Shown here: one piece after another, positions 587 through 55,232 of the stretch
Layout of the letters: every line of letters begins with the position of its first letter
Numbering within the stretch: position 1 is the stretch's first letter
Origin: a virus
Direction: 5' to 3' (one strand)
IMG/VR virus record: IMGVR_UViG_3300034160_000067
Location: 1-55,232 of that record
DNA: 55,232 bases
Translations under genes and position numbers: made by a program
Notes under the pieces: model-generated
Database searches by the model: none
Seen by the model: only the letters and a program-made list of their open reading frames with translations
What the model was told of the DNA's origin: nothing

Positions 587-591
587 GCCTT

Positions 592-619
592 TGTATGCCT
601 GTCACCACATGCCTGTCAA
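592..619 (-). promoter_or_regulatory. Leftward early promoter
   Basis: On the minus strand a perfect TTGACA (614-619) is followed after 16 bases by CATACA (592-597, 3 of 6 matches to TATAAT). It would transcribe 278-490 and the edge gene. The -35 overlaps the operator-like dyad at 616-630, and the -35/spacer is covered by two copies of TGACAGGCAT. The -10 is weak, so regulation by an activator is also possible. Confidence 0.5.
595..618. repeat. Two 10-bp direct repeats ATGCCTGTCA
   Basis: ATGCCTGTCA occurs at 595-604 and 609-618, start to start 14 bases apart, covering the -35 and spacer of the leftward promoter. The arrangement suggests a second regulator site, possibly for a Cro-like protein, but no partner is identified. 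Confidence 0.5.
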
Positions 620-801: not shown

Positions 802-825
802 CGGTAGCACGCTTAGGAGATGACG

Positions 826-1113
826 ATGTCAAAAGAGAAACCCTTGGAAGCCCGCTTTATGCCCGGATCGCTGGCGTGGCGCCTCGCGATGCTGAACACG
901 GGGGACACCATCGCGGAACCCCGGCGCATGGAGCGCAAGGAGCTGAAGGACTACGACCGCGCCGCCGAGCACCGCCGGCTGGAGTCGATCGTCAACGTCA
1001 GCATCGCCCGCGTGGCGGCCAAGCAAGGCAAGACGTTCCAGACCGAGCGCTGCGCGACAGTGACCGCGCAGGGAGACGTGATTCTGCTGTGCGTGGTGAC
1101 ACGTACGGCCTAA
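826..1113 (+). CDS. Hypothetical protein, first gene of the rightward early operon (95 aa)
   Basis: Starts MSKEKPLEARFMPGS. The ATG at 826 has AGGAG 6 bases upstream; the ATG at 820 would sit one base from that site and is less likely. The protein is charged with no membrane segment or known motif. Being the first gene after the repressible promoter, it may be a regulator, antiterminator or host takeover protein; this is position-based inference only. A short hairpin (1114-1126) follows its stop codon. Confidence 0.65.
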   Translation: MSKEKPLEARFMPGSLAWRLAMLNTGDTIAEPRRMERKELKDYDRAAEHRRLESIVNVSIARVAAKQGKTFQTERCATVTAQGDVILLCVVTRTA

Positions 1114-1126
1114 CAGGCTTCGCCTG
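1114..1126 (+). terminator. Short hairpin after the first early gene
   Basis: CAGGC-TTC-GCCTG, a 5-bp stem directly after the stop codon, without a T run. It may be a weak pause or attenuator. Confidence 0.25.
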
Positions 1127-1164
1127 ACAGTCAACCGAACAATGTAAAATCAACGGAGAGTGGG

Positions 1165-1440
1165 ATGACGACGAACGCACAAGCTGAAGTGATTGGACCC
1201 GGGATGACCCCCGCGCAGCTGCTGCGCGTGTGGGCGGGCAAGCTGGTCGAGATGGCCGACGCGCTCGACGCGGGGAAGCTCAAGGACTGCTGCGGCGCAG
1301 GCGAGATCGCGCTGTACGACGACGGCCAGTACCGCATCGACATCGAGATGCACCTGATCCCTCCCGACATGCCCACGAAGGACGAGCGCCTCAAGCAGTT
1401 CGTGTTGGCCCTGATGCCCGCTGAAGGCGGGAAACAGTAG
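1165..1440 (+). CDS. Hypothetical protein (91 aa)
   Basis: Starts MTTNAQAEVIGPGMTP with a CGGAGAG ribosome site. Acidic, soluble, with two adjacent cysteines near residue 46 and no family I recognise. The upstream gap (1114-1164) contains TAAAAT at 1145-1150, a possible -10, without a convincing -35. Confidence 0.6.
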   Translation: MTTNAQAEVIGPGMTPAQLLRVWAGKLVEMADALDAGKLKDCCGAGEIALYDDGQYRIDIEMHLIPPDMPTKDERLKQFVLALMPAEGGKQ

Positions 1441-1453
1441 CTCCAGAATGTTC

Positions 1454-1490
1454 GGCCCCTGAGGCTCGCTTCGGCGGGCCTCTGCGGGCC
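1454..1490 (+). terminator. GC-rich hairpin between early genes
   Basis: Nested arms GGCCC/GGGCC (1454-1458 and 1486-1490) and GAGGC/GCCTC (1461-1465 and 1478-1482) can fold, with no T run. The preceding bases (CCAGAATGT...AGGCTCGC) resemble 534-560, so part of the control region may have been copied here. Confidence 0.3.
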
Positions 1491-1521
1491 GGCGACTCAA
1501 CCGAAACGAGAGTTCACCACT

Positions 1522-2136
1522 ATGAAATGGCCGAAGATCATCGGAATCGCGGGCGCTGCCGGCAGCGGCAAGGACACCTGCGCACAGCAGCTGCACGACT
1601 ACTACCGCTACGAGATCCGCGCGTTCGCGACACCCATCAAGGTGCTGTTGAACCAGCGGTTCGGGTGGACGATGGAGCAGTGGGAGGATCGCGCGTGGAA
1701 GGAGCGCCCGGACCCGGCACACGGCACGGCGTTCGTGCAGCACAGCGTGGACACCGTGACGGGTCCGTTCTCGGTCGGCTATCACGACCCGATGAGCCCG
1801 CGCAGCTGGGCCCAGTGGCTGGGCACCGAGGCCTTCCGCGAGCTGGCGGGCATGGACTTCTGGGCGAAGCGATTGATCAACCAGTGGGCCGCCGACAGCT
1901 TCCCTGAGATCGTGATCCCTGACGTGCGCTTCGACAACGAGGTCTACATGATCCGTCGACAGGGCGGGGTCGTGCTCTACCTGCAGCGCGACGCGGCGCA
2001 GTCCATCGAGGCCCACGTCTCTGAGCGCGCGCTCAACATCAACGGCGTCGACGCCGTGATCGACAACAACGGGCCGATCGAGAGCCTGCGCCTGCGCGTG
2101 CTCTCCGCGCTCCTCGATCTGGAGGCCGCCAAATGA
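1522..2136 (+). CDS. Deoxynucleoside monophosphate kinase
   Basis: A 204-residue P-loop kinase that would phosphorylate dNMPs to dNDPs for phage DNA synthesis in the cytoplasm. The Walker A loop GAAGSGKDT lies at residues 11-19; a LID-like arginine-rich stretch and IPDVRFDNE follow near residue 135, a typical signature of the phage dNMP kinase family (T4 gene 1-like). Length fits the family. It overlaps the next gene by ATGA. Together with the dCMP-deaminase-like gene at 6651 it suggests that the phage manages its nucleotide pool. The call rests on motif recognition; substrate range cannot be read from the sequence. Confidence 0.85.
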   Translation: MKWPKIIGIAGAAGSGKDTCAQQLHDYYRYEIRAFATPIKVLLNQRFGWTMEQWEDRAWKERPDPAHGTAFVQHSVDTVTGPFSVGYHDPMSPRSWAQWLGTEAFRELAGMDFWAKRLINQWAADSFPEIVIPDVRFDNEVYMIRRQGGVVLYLQRDAAQSIEAHVSERALNINGVDAVIDNNGPIESLRLRVLSALLDLEAAK

Positions 2137-2327
2137 AGAACATCGACGGCTTCAGCTACCTGCACTACAAGAGCGTCACCAAAACCCGCGCGGAGTGGCG
2201 CGAGCTGGTCGGCCAGTACCGTCGCCGCGTCGATGCGGGCACGACGTACCTGCACGACCTGAAGACCGGTTGGTTGGTGTACGAGATCTACGCCGTGATC
2301 GCGGAGGCGAAAGCACATGCGAAGTGA
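2133..2327 (+). CDS. Small hypothetical protein (64 aa)
   Basis: Starts MKNIDGFSYLHYKSVT; the start overlaps the dNMP kinase stop (ATGA), so it is translationally coupled. Basic with several tyrosines; no recognised family. Confidence 0.6.
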   Translation: MKNIDGFSYLHYKSVTKTRAEWRELVGQYRRRVDAGTTYLHDLKTGWLVYEIYAVIAEAKAHAK

Positions 2328-2335
2328 GAACTCAC

Positions 2336-2599
2336 ATGCCAACTAAGCAGCGCGCCACGAGAGAGCACCGCAAACGCTACGAGCGCGCGGTGGCCTTCGC
2401 CAACAAGTATCAGGCCCGCCCGGGCTGGGAGACCGCGCCGCGCCTGCCGGTGGTGCTGGGCTTCCTCGAAGGCTATCGGCAGGCCGTGAAGGACCAGCGC
2501 AACGCGCGCGATCGTGCGCGCCGCGCGGAGCGACGGAAGCTCCACCCGATGCTCGCCGTCGCGCGAATCGTTACGCGGGAGTACGACGGCAATGAGTAG
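2336..2599 (+). CDS. Small basic hypothetical protein (87 aa)
   Basis: Starts MPTKQRATREHRKRYE at the ATG at 2336, just after the previous stop. It is strongly basic, with a C-terminal arginine-rich helix (RNARDRARRAERRK) that could contact nucleic acid, which is an inference. The next gene starts inside its last codons. Confidence 0.55.
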   Translation: MPTKQRATREHRKRYERAVAFANKYQARPGWETAPRLPVVLGFLEGYRQAVKDQRNARDRARRAERRKLHPMLAVARIVTREYDGNE

Positions 2600-2828
2600 G
2601 TTCAACGCGCTTTACCTCGGCGAGCCCGGCGTGGCGATCAACCTGCTGGAGCACGGCGAGGGTGATCACCTGCAGGAAGTCAGCTTCGATGACCTGCGCC
2701 TCGCCCTGATCAACGCGCTGCGTCGCATCGAGCGCGCCGCCGCGGACAACCACCGACTGCAGGAGCGCGTCGCCGCTCTGGAAATCAACCGTTCAATGAC
2801 TCGACAACCGAAGGAGCACTCACGATGA
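2592..2828 (+). CDS. Small hypothetical protein with a coiled coil (78 aa)
   Basis: Starts MSRFNALYLGEPGVAI; GGGAG lies 10 bases upstream and the start overlaps the previous gene by 8 bases. The C-terminal half (ALRRIERAAADNHRLQ) has heptad spacing typical of a short coiled coil. Unknown function. Confidence 0.6.
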   Translation: MSRFNALYLGEPGVAINLLEHGEGDHLQEVSFDDLRLALINALRRIERAAADNHRLQERVAALEINRSMTRQPKEHSR

Positions 2829-3127
2829 CCGACGACAAGAAGCCCCGGCGCGATCCGATCGACCCGGCACGACTCCCCATCGAGATCGGCCTGCCGATCC
2901 CGCCGCGCAAGCTCGTCTCTCCCGGCTCGCGCTGGGTACCGAAGCTGCAGAAGCTCGAAGTGGGCGAGTCTTTCAAGATCCCCGAGCGCACGCCCGCACA
3001 GGTCGCGTACATCCGCCGCATCGGCAAGGGCGTCGACTGCCCGGTGACGATGCGCGCTGTGAACGCGCACGACGAGGACGACGGCGTCTGGGGCACGCGC
3101 ATCTGGCGCGTCGACGACACGCTGTAA
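2825..3127 (+). CDS. Hypothetical phage protein (100 aa)
   Basis: Starts MTDDKKPRRDPIDPAR, coupled by ATGA overlap, with an AAGGAG site. The pattern VGESFKIPE...GVWGTRIWRV resembles a widespread small phage protein family that I know only as a domain of unknown function; no catalytic motif is visible. Confidence 0.6.
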   Translation: MTDDKKPRRDPIDPARLPIEIGLPIPPRKLVSPGSRWVPKLQKLEVGESFKIPERTPAQVAYIRRIGKGVDCPVTMRAVNAHDEDDGVWGTRIWRVDDTL

Positions 3128-3137
3128 GGGGGCTGCC

Positions 3138-3392
3138 ATGAACAAGACCCTCGCACGCATCGCCGTTGCGTTGTTCAGCCTCGGCGCGCTGTACGGCGCC
3201 ACGCAGCTCATGGAGTTCTTGGCGCGCTACGCCGTGCGCCTTTTCGATAGCACCAGCAGCGTCGAGCATGTAGTCGCCCTGCTGCTGGTGCTCCTCGCAG
3301 GGGCGCTTCCGTCGATGACGGGCTTCGTCAGCTACGCGGCGTGGCTCTCCACGTTCGACGACGCGGTTCCTGAGTACGAGGACTACGAATGA
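3138..3392 (+). CDS. Small membrane protein (84 aa)
   Basis: Starts MNKTLARIAVALFSLG. Two hydrophobic segments, about residues 5-25 and 44-66, predict an inner-membrane protein with an acidic C-terminal tail (PEYEDYE). Early operon position and size would also fit a superinfection-exclusion protein, but that is a guess. Confidence 0.6.
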   Translation: MNKTLARIAVALFSLGALYGATQLMEFLARYAVRLFDSTSSVEHVVALLLVLLAGALPSMTGFVSYAAWLSTFDDAVPEYEDYE

Positions 3393-3577
3393 TCCTCTCG
3401 GCCCTCACGCCGCTGGAGCTGGTGAAATACGCGCGCACCGCACCGGCCCGCACGGAGCTGCTCGAAGAGCTGATCAATCGGCTCGAAGACGTGGCCCACA
3501 TGAACGCGCGCTACTGCAAGACCATCGACGATCTCGAAATCAAACTCGCCGACACGAACTGGAGAAACTCACGATGA
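3389..3577 (+). CDS. Small hypothetical protein (62 aa)
   Basis: Starts MILSALTPLELVKYAR, overlapping the previous stop by ATGA. Helical and leucine-rich; the C-terminal half may form a coiled coil. No family recognised. Confidence 0.5.
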   Translation: MILSALTPLELVKYARTAPARTELLEELINRLEDVAHMNARYCKTIDDLEIKLADTNWRNSR

Positions 3578-3696
3578 AATACCTGATCACGATCCTCCGA
3601 GAATGTTTCGGCCATGGGGCCGAGTACCTCCCGCCGCCCGTGCAGGACCCGCGCGACACGGTCGCCGCGTTCCGCCGTTACATGTCGAATCGCTAG
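3574..3696 (+). CDS. Very small hypothetical protein (40 aa)
   Basis: Starts MKYLITILRECFGHGA and ends at TAG 3694-3696. Its ATG overlaps the previous stop in the ATGA pattern used throughout this operon, with GGAG 10 bases upstream, so I accept it despite the size. Function unknown. Confidence 0.5.
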   Translation: MKYLITILRECFGHGAEYLPPPVQDPRDTVAAFRRYMSNR

Positions 3697-3705
3697 GAGC
3701 CCGAG

Positions 3706-3960
3706 ATGAAAAAGAAACCACTGACGGATCCGATCAACCTGCAGCCGCCGAAGGACTGCGAGCACACCGGCAAGATGCAGGTGAGCAAGGCGAAGTTCGG
3801 CAAGGGCGAGCGGCAGGTCGAGCGCGTCATCGCGGTGTCGGTCCTGTGGCGCCAGCTGTGGCCCAGCCGCTCGAAGTACGTGCCGCACCTCGGCAAGCAT
3901 CAGGCGGGCTCGGTGGCGAAGCGCGAGCAGCTCGCGTCGATTCGGGAGGCACGGACATGA
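3706..3960 (+). CDS. Small basic hypothetical protein (84 aa)
   Basis: Starts MKKKPLTDPINLQPPK with GGAG upstream. Rich in lysine and arginine; single cysteine. No motif recognised. Overlaps the next gene start by ATGA. Confidence 0.55.
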   Translation: MKKKPLTDPINLQPPKDCEHTGKMQVSKAKFGKGERQVERVIAVSVLWRQLWPSRSKYVPHLGKHQAGSVAKREQLASIREART

Positions 3961-4232
3961 TGGCGCAGCAGCAGACGATCTTCGAGAAGGCCGTCGAGGC
4001 CGACGCGCTGAACCACAGGCGCTTCCTGATCATCCGGGCGCAGGCGGAGCACCGGGGCTCCGTGCGCGAGGACGAGTTCAGCATCGAGGCCCCGTGGTGC
4101 CGCGAGCAGGTGCTGCTCAAGGAGCTGGAGAACGCGCGGATCGAGGCCGCCGTGCTCGAAGCCCGCATGATCATGGCCCATCGGCAGGCGCAGACGCTGC
4201 AGGAGATGCTGACCACCTCTCGGACAAAGTAG
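3957..4232 (+). CDS. Small helical hypothetical protein (91 aa)
   Basis: Starts MMAQQQTIFEKAVEAD; either of two adjacent ATGs (3957, 3960) could be used, and GGGAGG precedes them. The second half is a long amphipathic helix, probably a coiled coil. The next promoter palindrome begins at its stop codon, so transcription is re-initiated after this gene. Confidence 0.55.
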   Translation: MMAQQQTIFEKAVEADALNHRRFLIIRAQAEHRGSVREDEFSIEAPWCREQVLLKELENARIEAAVLEARMIMAHRQAQTLQEMLTTSRTK

Positions 4233-4265
4233 GGCTTGACGGCCCATAGGGTGCTGTGGCCTAAT
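4230..4265 (+). promoter_or_regulatory. Palindromic promoter, copy 1
   Basis: TTGACG (4236-4241), 18-bp spacer, CCTAAT (4260-4265), placed inside an imperfect palindrome centred at 4246.5 with ends TAGG (4230-4233) and GGCCTA (4258-4263). Preceded by CGGACAAA. It drives the 4294 gene and starts on the previous gene's last bases. Confidence 0.65.
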
Positions 4266-4293
4266 GCTCCCACACTGAAACGGGAGACCTGCG

Positions 4294-5229
4294 ATGTGCA
4301 TGAACTGCGAAACGAACCTGAACGACTGGGGCTCACTGGAGTCGGAGTTCCTCAGCGGCGTGGACAGCAAGCCTGACTTCCTGTCGCACGCCGCGAACTT
4401 CGCCCAGAACGCCCCGGCGCCCTTCCGCGCCGAGAAGGTGAAGCGCCCGGTCCGCACGGAGCCCTGCGGCCGCTGCGGCGGCTCGGGCGTCTTCCGCCCG
4501 TTCGGCACCTGCTTCAAGTGCAACGGCACCCGGGTGCAGCGCGCGAAGATTCAGGACGTGAGCCCGGAGGGCGAGGCCCGCCGCGCGAAGCTGCACGAGC
4601 GCCGCATGGCGAAGGAAGCGCAGGAGCGCGCCGAGGCCGAGGCCCGCCGCCAGAGCCACTGGACGGCGTTCGCGTCGAGCTACGTGGCAGTCGCCCAGTG
4701 GATCGAGCGCGGCTGCTCGCAGGGCCGGGACTTCCCGCTGAGCCTGCGCGGTGGCGTCGAGAAGTTCGGCGGGCTGACCCCGAACCAGCTGGCCGCGGTC
4801 GAGCGGATCCTCGCGCAGGATGCGGAGAAGGCGAAGACTGCAGTGAACGTGGCTGGCGCGGGCTACGGCGCCCTCCTGAAGGCGTTCGCGAACGCGGTGG
4901 GCCACAAGCTCAAGTGGCCGAAGATCCGCGTGCAGGGCCTCGTATTCAGTCTGGCGGGCGCCAGCTCGGCGAACGCCGGCTGCCTCTACGTCAAGGCCGG
5001 CGAGACCTACATCGGCAAGGTGAGCCCGACGGGCCAGTTCTTCCGCGGCCGCGACTGCCGCACGGAAGACCTGCAGCTGGTCGAGCAGGTCGGCAAGGAC
5101 CCGCTGGCGGCGCTGGTCGCCCACGGCCACCAGACTGGCAGCTGCGGGATCTGCGGCCGCGAGCTGACGGACCCGACCAGCGTCGAGCGGGGCATCAGCC
5201 CGATCTGCGCTGAGAAGTACGGCTTCTGA
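4294..5229 (+). CDS. DUF6011-type zinc-binding protein
   Basis: A 311-residue protein. Near residues 57-79 it has a DnaJ-like zinc module (CGRCGGSGVF...CFKCNGT); a charged helical linker follows (about 95-120); the C-terminus (residues 284-311) is the CGICGRELTDPTS...PICAEKYGF motif typical of the DUF6011 family, probably a second zinc site. It has its own palindromic promoter and is monocistronic, as are the next two genes. Function is not known for the family; two zinc modules suggest nucleic acid or protein binding. Confidence 0.7.
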   Translation: MCMNCETNLNDWGSLESEFLSGVDSKPDFLSHAANFAQNAPAPFRAEKVKRPVRTEPCGRCGGSGVFRPFGTCFKCNGTRVQRAKIQDVSPEGEARRAKLHERRMAKEAQERAEAEARRQSHWTAFASSYVAVAQWIERGCSQGRDFPLSLRGGVEKFGGLTPNQLAAVERILAQDAEKAKTAVNVAGAGYGALLKAFANAVGHKLKWPKIRVQGLVFSLAGASSANAGCLYVKAGETYIGKVSPTGQFFRGRDCRTEDLQLVEQVGKDPLAALVAHGHQTGSCGICGRELTDPTSVERGISPICAEKYGF

Positions 5230-5245
5230 CCAACACGCGGACAAA

Positions 5246-5281
5246 CAGGCCTTGACGCCCCCTAGGGTGTCATGGCCTAAT
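5246..5281 (+). promoter_or_regulatory. Palindromic promoter, copy 2
   Basis: TTGACG (5252-5257), 18-bp spacer, CCTAAT (5276-5281). Palindrome arms AGGCCTTGACGCCC (5247-5260) and GGGTGTCATGGCCT (5265-5278) match at 12 of 14 positions around a centre at 5262.5. CGGACAAA precedes it. It drives the 5312 gene. Confidence 0.7.
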
Positions 5282-5311
5282 GTCCCCACACTGAATACGG
5301 AGATGACGAAC

Positions 5312-5695
5312 ATGGCAACGAAGAAATGGGCAAAGGTCCCCGACCTCGCGATCGACAAGATCCTGTACCCGAAGTTCGGCGTCAGCCCGCGGGGCAAGCT
5401 GGAGCGCCGCATCGTCGCGAACCTGATCGCGCACCTGAAGCGCGCGGGCTTCCGCCCCTACGAGGTCGACGACCGCGAGGAGGTGACCAAGGTCAAGGGC
5501 ACCAAGGACACCATGGAGCTGCTGTTCAACCTCGACGAGGCGTGGGTGTTCTTCACCAACGGAAGCTCGACCCACTGGGTGTACTTCACGATGGGCGAGG
5601 GCACCACGATGATCTGCGACCACAGCTTCACCGAGGGCGACCCGGATGGCTTCCTCGCCGCGATGGACGCCTTCGAGGCGGAAGACTACGCGTGA
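5312..5695 (+). CDS. Hypothetical protein (127 aa)
   Basis: Starts MATKKWAKVPDLAIDK. I chose the ATG at 5312 (CGGAG 9 bases upstream) over the ATG at 5303, because the sister leader at 5782 has ATAA at that spot. An in-frame TTG start at 5252 would fall in the -35 box and is rejected. The C-terminal half is acidic with many aromatic residues (WVFFTNGSSTHWVYF). No family recognised; single-gene unit under a palindromic promoter. Confidence 0.65.
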   Translation: MATKKWAKVPDLAIDKILYPKFGVSPRGKLERRIVANLIAHLKRAGFRPYEVDDREEVTKVKGTKDTMELLFNLDEAWVFFTNGSSTHWVYFTMGEGTTMICDHSFTEGDPDGFLAAMDAFEAEDYA

Positions 5696-5711
5696 CCATC
5701 TGACGGACAAA

Positions 5712-5747
5712 TAGGCCTTGACGCCCACTAGGGCGCCATGGCCTAAT
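5712..5747 (+). promoter_or_regulatory. Palindromic promoter, copy 3
   Basis: TTGACG (5718-5723), 18-bp spacer, CCTAAT (5742-5747), inside a 34-bp imperfect palindrome TAGGCC...GGCCTA (5712-5745, centre 5728.5). CGGACAAA lies just before. It drives the frameshifted 5782 gene and the HTH gene after it. Confidence 0.7.
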
Positions 5748-5781
5748 AGCACCGTCGATTCACCCAACGGAGATAACGAAC

Positions 5782-6041
5782 ATGATTGATGTAACGAACG
5801 TGTACGCTACTGCGACCCACACCCCGGGGCCTTGGAAGGTGACGCGCCGCGCTGGCGGCTGGTCGGTCACCGCAGCAGGGGACACGATCAAAAGGATCAC
5901 CCGGAGTGGGTCTGGTCGCTGCAGGGCGACTGGTACGATCGCGAGACCGGACGCGTGATCGCTTATTTCGGCGACCCCGTCAGGCCCCAACTCGCATACG
6001 AATTTTCGTGGCGCAACCTTCACACCGAGGAACCAGCATGA
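5782..6041 (+). pseudogene. Hypothetical protein gene split by a -1 frame change
   Basis: The first frame starts at ATG 5782 (MIDVTNVYATATHTPG) and stops at 5956-5958 after 58 residues. From about 5890 the -1 frame reads with codon use and composition like a real protein (HPEWVWSLQGDWYDRE) to a stop at 6039-6041. The switch point is ATC AAA AGG (5887-5895), a run of four A. One continuous protein of about 86 residues would result from a -1 shift. It may be a mutation, an assembly error or a programmed shift; the heptamer is not a canonical slippery site. The downstream stop overlaps the next gene by ATGA. Confidence 0.5.
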
Positions 6042-6211
6042 CCGCACGACAACTTCAGAAACTGCTCGACGACGCCGGGCTCAGCCAGCGCGGCGCCGCG
6101 AAGCAGATCGGCATCCACGAACGCACGATGCGCAAGTACATCGCCGACGAGATGGTGATCCCGCTCACCGTCGAGTACGCGCTGCGCTGGATCGTGAGCC
6201 AGATCAAGTGA
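6038..6211 (+). CDS. Small helix-turn-helix DNA-binding protein (57 aa)
   Basis: Starts MTARQLQKLLDDAGLS with GAGGA upstream. Nearly the whole protein is one XRE/Cro-like HTH: LSQRGAAKQIGIHERTMRKY spans the two core helices (residues 15-34). It probably regulates phage promoters as a Cro-like or accessory repressor. It shares the palindromic promoter at 5718 with the preceding gene and is thus a candidate for binding that palindrome, which is an inference only. Confidence 0.7.
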   Translation: MTARQLQKLLDDAGLSQRGAAKQIGIHERTMRKYIADEMVIPLTVEYALRWIVSQIK

Positions 6212-6303
6212 CTTCTACGGCACCGAAAAAATGCGGGCTGCATGCGACAAGCGGACCCGCAGGCTATGTCAGTAGCCCGGTGCCACTCTCTTCAGGAGCG
6301 ACC

Positions 6304-6654
6304 ATGAACGACGTGACCAAATTGCCGAAGTGGGCGCAGGAGCAGATGCGAAGCCTGACGCTCCAGCGCGACGCCGCCGTGCGCGAGCTGCGCACGTACA
6401 CCGACAACCAAACGATGTCAGCCTTCTTCACCCGAGACATGGTGTGCGACAAGGAAGGGGGCCCGACGATCTACCATCGCTACGTGCAGGCGCACGACAT
6501 GTGCGTCGAGCATCAAGGGGTGCATATGGACATCTACCTGCGCGATGACGGGATCAACATCCAGTACGGGATCATCGGCCGCGGCGGGCCGCTGGACGAC
6601 GTGATCCTGCAGCCGAAGTCGTTCCAGAACTTCACGCTGAAGTTGCCGGCGTGA
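6304..6654 (+). CDS. Hypothetical protein (116 aa)
   Basis: Starts MNDVTKLPKWAQEQMR with CAGGAG 6 bases upstream. A helical N-terminus is followed by a beta-rich half (MDIYLRDDGINIQYGI). No known family. The 92-base gap before it holds a small inverted repeat GGCTA...TAGCC (6262-6277) but no clear promoter. Confidence 0.6.
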   Translation: MNDVTKLPKWAQEQMRSLTLQRDAAVRELRTYTDNQTMSAFFTRDMVCDKEGGPTIYHRYVQAHDMCVEHQGVHMDIYLRDDGINIQYGIIGRGGPLDDVILQPKSFQNFTLKLPA

Positions 6655-6971
6655 GCGGGCCCTGCGCAAAGCGCCGCGTGGCCTGCCTCATCAAGACGAA
6701 GGATGGGGTGCTCGCGAACGGCTCGAACAACTGCGAGAGCCCGCAGCCGGCGTGCCCGCGCGCCGAGGGCGAGGGCTACGAGAAGTGCGCGACGATCTGC
6801 CGGCAAGCCGGGCACGCCGAAGCGGTCGCGCTCGATCGCGCTCGCGAGATGGGGCTCGTCCTCAGCGGCGCGACCGCCTATCTCTACGGCCACTATCACG
6901 TTTGCCAAGAGTGCGCGAAGGCGCTGCGCGATGCCGGCGTCGAGCAGATCAACATCTTGGTGACGCCGTGA
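6651..6971 (+). CDS. dCMP-deaminase-like zinc protein
   Basis: A 106-residue cytidine-deaminase-fold protein. The zinc and catalytic signature is present: H55-A-E57 and C85-x-x-C88 (HVCQEC). The preceding region (NNCESPQPACPR...GYEKCATIC) matches the phage dCMP-deaminase-like family and adds further cysteines. The GTG start overlaps the previous stop (GTGA). It would deaminate dCMP to dUMP or act on a related nucleotide; short length and lack of a clear substrate loop leave the substrate open. It fits with the dNMP kinase at 1522. Confidence 0.7.
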   Translation: MSGPCAKRRVACLIKTKDGVLANGSNNCESPQPACPRAEGEGYEKCATICRQAGHAEAVALDRAREMGLVLSGATAYLYGHYHVCQECAKALRDAGVEQINILVTP

Positions 6972-7144
6972 GTCGCGATCGCACGATCACGACCACGAAG
7001 AAACCGGAGCGCGTCTGCCCGACGTGCCGCGAGCCGGTGCTGAAGGTCATCAAAATGGGACAGTTGAGCTATATGTGCTCGAAGCATTGGGGCCCGTGGG
7101 ACGATGCCGTGCGAGCAGAGAGTAGCGGAGACGGTGCTCTATGA
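6968..7144 (+). CDS. Small zinc-ribbon protein (58 aa)
   Basis: GTG start overlapping the previous stop (GTGA); starts MSRDRTITTTKKPERV. Contains CPTC (residues 17-20) and CSKH (44-47), a likely zinc ribbon. Unknown role. Confidence 0.6.
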   Translation: MSRDRTITTTKKPERVCPTCREPVLKVIKMGQLSYMCSKHWGPWDDAVRAESSGDGAL

Positions 7145-7332
7145 GACTCAAGAAGGCAGACATTGAGCGCGAGCGTAAGGCGTTCGAGAAGTGGGCCAAT
7201 AAGACTTGGCTCGCTGGCTGGGAGTTCGGTGGGGTGGGTCGCGCCTACTTTGCCCCCGAAGTGGATACCGCGTTTCAAGGCTGGCTCGCCCGCGCAAGAC
7301 TCGCGTCCAGCGCAGACGCACAACGGAAATGA
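7141..7332 (+). CDS. Small hypothetical protein (63 aa)
   Basis: Starts MRLKKADIERERKAFE; ATGA overlap with the previous gene. The pattern FEKWANK...AYFAPEVDTAFQGW is like a common small phage protein of unknown function. It ends where the run of near-identical gene junctions begins. Confidence 0.6.
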   Translation: MRLKKADIERERKAFEKWANKTWLAGWEFGGVGRAYFAPEVDTAFQGWLARARLASSADAQRK

Positions 7333-7341
7333 GGTAACACT

Positions 7342-7524
7342 ATGACTGGCATTGATGCCGCGATGCGGCTTGCACTTCTAGGACTCTCCATTGCATTTTT
7401 CGTGGGCTTGCCACTTTCAATCGAATTTGAGGGCGAACGGTACGCGGGGGTTGCAGTGGTGCTCGGCTTGTTGTGCACGCTACCGTTGCTGGTCCGACTG
7501 GCCACGCTGGCGGTGTGGTCGTGA
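7342..7524 (+). CDS. Small membrane protein (60 aa)
   Basis: Starts MTGIDAAMRLALLGLS. Two hydrophobic stretches, about residues 8-27 and 35-58, predict an inner-membrane hairpin. Unknown role. Confidence 0.55.
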   Translation: MTGIDAAMRLALLGLSIAFFVGLPLSIEFEGERYAGVAVVLGLLCTLPLLVRLATLAVWS

Positions 7525-7555
7525 GAGCATCTGTAGCCGTGGGAGAGGGGCGGAA

Positions 7556-7750
7556 ATGACGTTTAACAGCCGTTTACGCGATTCGCGAATCGAGAATGAC
7601 ATCTTCCAGCGAATCGAGGCGCGAAACCATGCGCTATGGGACGCGCTAGACACAACGAAGCCGGACGCCGAGCGGCGGGCTGCGCTGGATCGCGCATTCA
7701 GCGACGAGCCAGAGCGAGCAAAGGGAACCGTGGGAGAGGGGCGGAAATGA
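7556..7750 (+). CDS. Small hypothetical protein (64 aa)
   Basis: Starts MTFNSRLRDSRIENDI. Its start lies in one copy of the junction repeat and its end (GTVGEGRK) in the next. Soluble, charged, no known domain. Confidence 0.55.
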   Translation: MTFNSRLRDSRIENDIFQRIEARNHALWDALDTTKPDAERRAALDRAFSDEPERAKGTVGEGRK

Positions 7751-7974
7751 AGCCCGGCTTGCCGTATTCAATGCGAAGGCCGCGCGCTGCGAAGCCCATG
7801 CGCGGGCAGGGGACTGAGGGAGCGTGGTGGTACGTGGACCCGAATGGCATAGAGGTCTGGACGTACTCCGCACGCGCGGGCAGCCTTGGTTGCAGGCTGA
7901 CGTTCGCGCAGTTGCAGAAGGCGCTACAGGTCGCAAGAGCATCAGGCCACGTAGGAGAGGGTCGCAAGACATGA
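7747..7974 (+). CDS. Small hypothetical protein (75 aa)
   Basis: Starts MKPGLPYSMRRPRAAK; ATGA overlap with the previous gene inside the junction repeat. A WWYVDPNGIEVW stretch suggests a small beta structure. The C-terminus GHVGEGRKT matches the tail of the preceding protein because of the repeated junction. Confidence 0.55.
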   Translation: MKPGLPYSMRRPRAAKPMRGQGTEGAWWYVDPNGIEVWTYSARAGSLGCRLTFAQLQKALQVARASGHVGEGRKT

Positions 7975-8213
7975 CACCCAAAGGCATCGAGTTCGGGGAA
8001 CGCTACGCAGACGAGAGCGGCTGGGCGCGTCACCTTGTGATCGACGTTCACGCGGAGCGGGTCACCATAGACTTGAACGGCGGCGAGAATCGCGTGACGC
8101 TCGATGATCTGTGGTGGCTGGTGCGCGCAGCCCTAGTGGCCCGCGACAAGCTGGGCATGGATGTGCTTTGCACTGCTGGCCCCGCCTCAGATGCTCCGGG
8201 AGAGAAGCCATGA
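7971..8213 (+). CDS. Small hypothetical protein (80 aa)
   Basis: Starts MTPKGIEFGERYADES, coupled by overlap. Its tail ASDAPGEKP is nearly identical to that of the next gene's product (ATDAPGEKP). No family recognised. Confidence 0.55.
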   Translation: MTPKGIEFGERYADESGWARHLVIDVHAERVTIDLNGGENRVTLDDLWWLVRAALVARDKLGMDVLCTAGPASDAPGEKP

Positions 8214-8590
8214 GCGACGAAATCAAGTACCCGGCCCGCGTCGGGCTGAGTCTTATGTCAGCGCTGGAACAACAGCGCGACGATGCGCGTGCGGAAGTCG
8301 TCGCCCTGCGCGCCGAGGTCGCGGCGCTGCACAACTCCCACGCATTGCACATAGACCTATCGACGGAACTGGCGCAGGAAAACGTGGCGCTGCGGGCGGC
8401 GCTGGGGAATCTGTACGACCTCGTTGAGAACGGCCCGGAATGCTACGAGAATCCCGAGTCGCAGGACGGCTACATCGGTCGCGCGGTGCTAATTTCAGAA
8501 GCCGATGAGAATGCAATCATTGCGCTGTTGAGAGCATCTGGTCAGCAGCAGCCCGGCCCCGCCACCGATGCTCCGGGAGAGAAGCCATGA
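8210..8590 (+). CDS. Small coiled-coil protein (126 aa)
   Basis: Starts MSDEIKYPARVGLSLM. Residues about 20-65 form a heptad-patterned helix (LEQQRDDARAEVVALRAEVA). It shares the start motif MSD, a similar coiled coil, the LRAALG/ATLY segment and the ASGQQ tail with the 8587 product, so the two are probably diverged copies. Confidence 0.6.
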   Translation: MSDEIKYPARVGLSLMSALEQQRDDARAEVVALRAEVAALHNSHALHIDLSTELAQENVALRAALGNLYDLVENGPECYENPESQDGYIGRAVLISEADENAIIALLRASGQQQPGPATDAPGEKP

Positions 8591-8826
8591 GCGACGTAGA
8601 GCGCCGAGACATCTGGATCGAGGACTGGAAAAAGGCGAATCTAGAGGCGGTGAAAGCATCCGACTACGACGCCCTGCGGGCCGAGGTCGAGCGGCTGCGG
8701 GCGGCGCTTGCGACGCTATACGGACGCACAGTGAGTGTCGATATATCAGCGGCAGAAGAACAGGAAATCCTAGCCCTGATCGACATGCGAGCATCTGGTC
8801 AGCAGCCAGAATCTCAGTCGCGATGA
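8587..8826 (+). CDS. Small coiled-coil protein (79 aa), related to the preceding one
   Basis: Starts MSDVERRDIWIEDWKK. Shorter relative of the 8210 product (DALRAEVERLRAALATLY and RASGQQ in both). It is the last rightward gene; its final 13 bases overlap the end of the convergent beta-helix gene. Confidence 0.6.
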   Translation: MSDVERRDIWIEDWKKANLEAVKASDYDALRAEVERLRAALATLYGRTVSVDISAAEEQEILALIDMRASGQQPESQSR

Positions 8827-52005: not shown

Positions 52006-52305
52006 ATGCCTGTACTTTCCCGTGCCCCGGCCGCTGTAACGCGCGATCACGCGCCGCGCAAGCGCCAGCTGGAATTCCGCCTGACGCTGCTGACCGTGGC
52101 CGTGCGCGTCACCCACGATGGACGCCTGAAGTCCCTCGCGCGCATCCTGTGCGTCGAGCCCGAGACGCTCGCCGTGTGGATTCGCCGCGGGGAGCTGACC
52201 GCCGACCGCGCGCGGCAGATCCTCAGTCTTCCAGATCTCAACCCCGATGGTGCTCCGCGCATCACGCTGGCTGATCTCGCGCCGTCCATCGCCGAAATGA
52301 TCTGA
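52006..52305 (+). CDS. Small HTH regulator (99 aa)
   Basis: Starts MPVLSRAPAAVTRDHA, with GGAG 9 bases upstream. Residues about 45-80 (LKSLARILCVEPETLAVWIR) form a helix-turn-helix. It faces away from the replication operon across the shared operator, the place of a Cro- or CII-like regulator. Confidence 0.6.
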   Translation: MPVLSRAPAAVTRDHAPRKRQLEFRLTLLTVAVRVTHDGRLKSLARILCVEPETLAVWIRRGELTADRARQILSLPDLNPDGAPRITLADLAPSIAEMI

Positions 52306-55123: not shown

Positions 55124-55232
55124 ATAGCGGGTTTGCCACAAAAATCAGGGGGCAGTACTGGGGTAAGTGTACTTTCGAGAGGGGTCTCCCTGACAGTATT
55201 TCAATTTGTGTGAAAACACGGCTCTGCGCCCC

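Follow-up and report, generated by a model that had tools for sequence, protein, structure and literature searches.

Three early promoters of an uncultured Chi/Enc34-like phage carry predicted operators for an Aca1-family repressor

We analyzed a virus contig of 55,232 bp (the whole of it is called the window here) and found that an Aca1-family autorepressor, encoded at 6038-6211, very likely controls three constitutive promoters of the sigma-70 type through operators of the form TAGG-N9-CCTA, and that the genes behind these promoters are candidates for anti-defence functions. What can be read directly from the DNA are the promoter and operator repeats, the HTH family of the protein and the fact that this operator form also precedes its relatives; binding, repression and timing by the 6038-6211 protein are what its family would predict. 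While autorepression of an acr-aca operon by its Aca is known, the co-regulation of several units by an Aca1-type repressor would be new, and a limited search of the open-access literature found no report of a single bacterial Aca controlling several units. The wider reading, in which three, possibly four, anti-defence units of a lytic phage, each with a promoter of its own, answer to this protein as their master switch and phrog_4046/DUF6011 and phrog_4158 are anti-defence proteins, falls in our judgment a little short of even chances.

The contig carries early genes on the plus strand (early region from about 820 to 8826), and late genes on the minus strand, followed by genes for an HTH protein and a primase on the plus strand. 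Single-protein searches with the terminase and the zinc protein gave no relatives; it was the terminase alignment that led to the Casjensviridae, with a large subunit 50-56% identical to those of S-ESS1, AchV4 and Enc34. Gene order is that of Enc34 (read in reverse) and BcepNazgul (in the given direction). The right end (55221-55232) reads GGGGCGCAGAGC when reverse-complemented, and since it resembles the cos overhang of Enc34, GGTGCGCAGAGC (minus strand), it is probably a genuine genome end. A minus-strand gene is cut by the left contig end, which is probably truncated, with the left arm missing. Phages of the Chi/Enc34 family are generally described as lytic, no integrase was seen in the part of the window's ORFs that was scanned, and this uncultured phage is probably lytic. 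The setting in lysogens that an earlier note on this DNA had implied is thus not indicated, which makes transcript mapping in lysogens an unsuitable test.

The promoter TTGACG-N18-CCTAAT occurs exactly three times in the window, always on the plus strand (4236-4265, 5252-5281, and 5718-5747), where none would be expected by chance, and a matrix scan of the window found no fourth full copy. Every copy is preceded by CGGACAAA (4221, 5238, and 5704), which lies one base further upstream in copy 1. The earlier note had described these promoters, the block ahead of them and the short unit that each one heads (a zinc protein; an acidic protein; a frameshifted ORF plus an HTH protein), and all of this was confirmed. 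It had also placed the promoters inside a palindrome of 32-34 bp. Symmetric repeats are indeed present, but scored as a single 34-bp palindrome copies 1, 2, and 3 pair at 9, 12, and 13 of 17 positions, and as 51 of the 34-mers of this GC-rich window have at least 12 paired positions and copy 1 scores poorly, the long palindrome alone is not outstanding. A pair of abutting 17-bp inverted repeats of the form TAGG-N9-CCTA describes the element better: IR1 covers the −35 box and has an imperfect right half in all three copies (4230, 5246, and 5712), and IR2, perfect in all three (4247, 5263, and 5729), covers the spacer and the −10 box. Only at these promoters does the window hold an exact TAGG-N9-CCTA, with three occurrences against a mean of 0.05 in simulated sequence, and the form with any other gap from 5 to 15 is absent from it. 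A further site at 571-587 matches at seven of the eight positions and would lie where the leftward early operon is predicted to start. The sites are as follows.

571-587, no strand assigned: operator-like site TAGGCCCTGACACCCTG, TAGG-N9-CCTG, 7/8 positions
590-619, minus strand: predicted leftward early promoter TTGACA-18-TACAAA, read from the sequence
4221-4228, plus strand: upstream block CGGACAAA, copy 1, inside the 3′ end of ORF 3957-4232; its CGGACAA is shared with the acrIF1-aca1 promoter of JBD30
4230-4246, plus strand: predicted operator IR1, copy 1, TAGGGCTTGACGGCCCA, holding the −35 box TTGACG (4236-4241)
4247-4263, plus strand: predicted operator IR2, copy 1, TAGGGTGCTGTGGCCTA, TAGG-N9-CCTA, overlapping the −10 box CCTAAT (4260-4265)
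5238-5245, plus strand: upstream block CGGACAAA, copy 2
5246-5262, plus strand: predicted operator IR1, copy 2, CAGGCCTTGACGCCCCC, holding the −35 box (5252-5257)
5263-5279, plus strand: predicted operator IR2, copy 2, TAGGGTGTCATGGCCTA, −10 box CCTAAT at 5276-5281
5704-5711, plus strand: upstream block CGGACAAA, copy 3
5712-5728, plus strand: predicted operator IR1, copy 3, TAGGCCTTGACGCCCAC, holding the −35 box (5718-5723)
5729-5745, plus strand: predicted operator IR2, copy 3, TAGGGCGCCATGGCCTA, −10 box CCTAAT at 5742-5747

The leaders are shared in part, CCCACACTGAA being common to copies 1 and 2 and CGGAGAT-ACGAACATG to copies 2 and 3, so that promoter and leader seem to have been copied together. 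Two other elements of the early region were observed: a direct repeat of TGACAGGCAT in the −35 box and spacer of the leftward promoter at 590-619 (minus strand), and a palindrome, AATCCTGAT-N7-ATCAGGATT, which occurs once in the window, at 707-731, about 40 bp upstream of a rightward early promoter with TTGACA at 771.

The protein proposed to read the operators belongs to the Aca1 family by sequence, PHROG, and fold. A phmmer search against all PDB sequences returned Aca1 of phage JBD30 first (E 1.6e-5, residues 4-52), to which it is approximately 40% identical. Its best PHROG is phrog_3865 (8.8e-10), to which JBD30 Aca1 (1.1e-45) and two plasmid HTH proteins also belong; one of these two is encoded behind acrE1. 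The five best PDB fold matches of a single-sequence AlphaFold model (pLDDT 87) were all Aca1, with TM-scores of 0.80-0.85 by query; the Foldseek E-values to Aca1 were weak (4e-3 to 1e-2), with other XRE-type HTH proteins close behind. Aca proteins of ten families repress their own operons via inverted repeats within the core promoter (PMC9410906), and Aca10 binds a 21-bp palindrome overlapping the −35 and −10 boxes (PMC9410881). The core promoter of the operon to which the 6038-6211 gene belongs (copy 3) contains such repeats, IR2 over the spacer and −10 box and IR1 over the −35 box. The earlier note had argued that conservation beyond the needs of sigma called for a dimeric regulator and had named the 6038-6211 protein for a binding test; both ideas hold up, as far as sequence comparison can tell, with the protein the right candidate reader and the same operator form found upstream of its relatives. 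The Aca family, which that note did not recognize, gives the units their most likely meaning, and the separately regulated modules it had pictured give way to a proposed co-regulation through one repressor.

The match between operator and regulator extends to other Aca1-family loci. The promoter of the JBD30 acrIF1-aca1 operon is CGGACAAGCGGCACACTGTGCCTATTGCGAATTAGGCACAATGTGCCTAATCT, and CGGACAA followed by TAGG-N9-CCTAAT is common to it and all three copies in the window. When scanned in IMG/VR (2.9 million virus contigs), this shared pattern was found at 19 loci, 10 of them with Aca1 300-800 bp downstream; as these ten are close relatives of JBD30, the scan shows the specificity of the pattern and is not independent evidence. 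Such evidence comes from a protein-based search, which gave 43 Aca1-family loci, near-duplicates included: 16 of them have an exact TAGG-N9-CCTA no more than 1.2 kb ahead of aca and 27 lack it in the stretch tested, with any other gap from 3 to 17 found 0 or 1 times. At the closest locus, L260, the Aca is 82% identical to the 6038-6211 protein, and the promoter TAGGGCTTGACACCCTATAGGGTTATGGGGCCTAAT consists of two perfect abutting operators, IR1 TAGGGCTTGACACCCTA and a second one TAGGGTTATGGGGCCTAAT, followed at 3074-3334 of L260 by an intact acidic ORF of 86 aa, which overlaps the beginning of aca by ATGA. Since the 7.5 kb of L260 compared with the window share nothing with it beyond promoter and Aca, these two travel as a pair, and the cargo changes. 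Nor is the multi-unit layout unique to the window, because in another virus, L284, three promoters hold TAGG-N9-CCTA between TTGACA and the −10 box (3583, 4203, and 6386 of L284), of which one leads to an Aca1-family gene and two precede other small ORFs. As a separate observation, a block C(C/G)GAC(A/G)A stands ahead of Aca-type promoters in JBD30, two plasmids, Phobosvirus and the window (4221, 5238, and 5704 in the window; L238:746; L239:1179; L240:1565; upstream of Pho61 and gp03 in L004 and L005); L260 lacks CGGACAA.

The genes behind the three promoters are these.

4294-5229, plus strand: unit 1, Cys-motif protein of 311 aa assigned to phrog_4046, with DUF6011 at its C terminus; candidate for an anti-defence role
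5312-5695, plus strand: unit 2, 127-aa protein, phrog_4158
5782-6041, plus strand: unit 3 cargo, small gene split between two reading frames, 5782-5958 and 5832-6041
6038-6211, plus strand: Aca1-family HTH protein of 57 aa, which would repress all three promoters

The unit 1 protein is related to proteins of several hundred Pseudomonas and mycobacterial phages. In Phobosvirus and contig L104, homologs of the unit 2 protein follow promoters whose palindromes differ in sequence, so this cargo is not tied to an Aca1-type regulator. The small gene of unit 3 is split by a frameshift, which may be an indel, an assembly error or a programmed shift, and its second frame overlaps the aca-like gene by ATGA; it had no match worth naming in Pfam, PHROG, PADLOC, PDB or phage sequences. 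As none of the three units resembles a known anti-CRISPR in these general libraries, we call the third one aca-like and not a proven acr-aca operon, and Aca-like genes are also found without acr genes (PMC9410906). An Aca-type switch often governs genes for anti-CRISPRs or for other anti-defence functions, which makes all three cargo genes (those of the DUF6011 protein and the phrog_4158 protein, and the small ORF) strong, though unproven, candidates for a role in counteracting bacterial defences; from this association it is fairly probable that at least one unit has such a function.

We propose that each promoter is covered by two abutting 17-bp operators of the Aca1-family autorepressor, whose gene is the last one of the third unit. 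On entry of the phage the promoters would be free and strong, and the three early units would be made simultaneously. As the repressor accumulates it would bind IR2 (and IR1) as a dimer across the −35 box, spacer and −10 box, block RNA polymerase, and so turn off the three units together with its own gene.

Repeated promoters with operators seem to be common in the Casjensviridae, the Aca1-type version occurring only in the window among the genomes seen. The early promoters carry the palindrome TTGAC(A/G)-YACG..GYRTGT in chi, Enc34 and G016, TGACAC-N9-GTGTCA in G001, TGACAGGG..CCNTGTCA in G015 and the phrog_4158-bearing contig L104, and TGTCC-N8-GGACA in Phobosvirus; in three Phobosvirus genomes the last of these also lies just upstream of the repressor gene that adjoins the primase (L232:6226, L233:4798, and L080:9025), which suggests that this repressor is autoregulated. 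A limited search of the open-access literature found no description of early operators in the chi family. Repeated early promoters with genus-specific palindromes over the −35 box and spacer were observed in records of chi, Enc34, Phobosvirus and uncultured relatives, namely L075, L077, L079, L231, L195, L222, L228, L004, L005, and L080. Clusters of two to four operator sites with no obvious gene behind them were also noted near the genome end in Enc34, chi, G016, and G001 (L077:10012-10251, L231:9143-9270, L222:284-388, and L197:17987-18032).

This family habit, together with the operator in the leader of the Phobosvirus repressor gene and the presence in the window of an HTH protein next to the primase (52006-52305), lends some weight to another explanation, namely that the repeats are ordinary early operators read by a Cro-like repressor encoded elsewhere, be it that HTH protein or one in the missing left arm, and that the Aca1-like protein is incidental. 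We consider this unlikely, as no TAGG-N9-CCTA lies near 52006, the window has the operator form of the Aca1 family, which 1.06 Mb of relatives lack, and the closely similar promoter of L260 travels with an Aca gene and shares nothing else. Our first reading had been of this kind, a diverged form of the TGACA...TGTCA operator of chi, G001, and G015 read by the 52006-52305 HTH protein; it was dropped after 6038-6211 had been matched to Aca1 and the promoter in the window to that of JBD30. A direct BLASTP comparison found no similarity between the 6038-6211 protein and the Phobos repressor Pho8. Even less probable is that the third unit is a toxin-antitoxin pair with an autoregulating HTH antitoxin, the other two promoters being copies captured by neighbors: some Aca proteins do resemble antitoxins (PMC9410906) and the 6038-6211 protein has weak HTH matches to the antitoxin families HigA, MqsA, and RES/Xre, but these fall far below the cut-off, and Aca1 comes out on top by sequence, PHROG, and fold.

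Mobile promoter/stem-loop cassettes are known from T4-type phages, and promoter and leader appear duplicated together in the window as well, with copies 2 and 3 folding well as RNA (z −3.8 and −3.4). That the palindrome acts as an RNA hairpin, a terminator or processing site in read-through transcripts, is nevertheless very improbable, as copy 1, with promoter and IR2 both intact, forms no hairpin (z −1.6), the palindrome is not followed by a U-run, and the sites span the −35 to −10 region instead of flanking the promoter; the T4-type cassette proper, with a stem-loop at every copy, was rejected on the failure of copy 1 to fold. A MerR-type spacer activator was rejected, too, since it needs a dyad in a spacer of 19-20 bp and the spacer is 18 bp here, as were Cluster A stoperators, which are many, asymmetric, genome-wide and outside promoters, the present sites being symmetric, with three in promoters and one near a predicted promoter. 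The element of the window is absent from all 26 virus records searched on the basis of the terminase alignment. The exact promoter pattern had no match in viral_contigs, a relaxed 15-base pattern gave 67 scattered single matches there, and blastn of a single promoter copy against phages gave none. The perfect 30-bp palindrome hit ten actinobacterial hairpins in bacterial genomes, which we judged unrelated.

Promoters controlled by Aca proteins have proved effective as bait for anti-CRISPR genes, as a rule those of a single operon. An operator repeated ahead of separate units ties genes outside the aca operon to the same proposed switch, and makes the widespread, uncharacterized phage proteins of the phrog_4046/DUF6011 and phrog_4158 families directly testable as anti-defence proteins. 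TAGG-N9-CCTA inside a TTGAC promoter is a simple search rule for further units, with L284 as a second example, and the survey suggests that phages of the Chi/Enc34 type regulate their early genes by repeated, genus-specific operators.

The closest known system is the acrIF1-aca1 operon of JBD30 (PDB 7C0G and 7VJM), with which the window shares an Aca1-family HTH protein encoded by the final gene, a promoter with two inverted repeats, an IR2 of the form TAGG-N9-CCTAAT at the −10 box and the upstream CGGACAA block. However, JBD30 has one promoter and one operon whereas the window has three promoters, each with its own cargo; IR1 and IR2 start 25 bp apart in JBD30 and 17 bp apart in the window, with the −35 box inside IR1; and the Aca of the window is only some 40% identical, its cargo not being a known Acr. 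The Aca1-Aca10 autorepressors likewise have a small HTH gene at the end of the operon and inverted repeats in the core promoter, but the case usually described is a lone acr-aca operon whose one promoter holds one or two repeats (PMC9410906; PMC9410881). With chi, Enc34, and Phobosvirus the window shares repeated early promoters with a palindrome over the −35 box and spacer, although their operator sequences are different and the candidate repressor of Phobosvirus adjoins the primase. Finally, in the early anti-defence regulons of archaeal viruses, which also have Aca-like regulators, one and the same regulatory sequence precedes several unrelated early genes, each either a candidate or a proven anti-defence gene (PMC11065993); those are archaeal viruses with archaeal promoters, while the window belongs to a bacterial phage with an Aca1-family protein and operators over boxes of the sigma-70 type.
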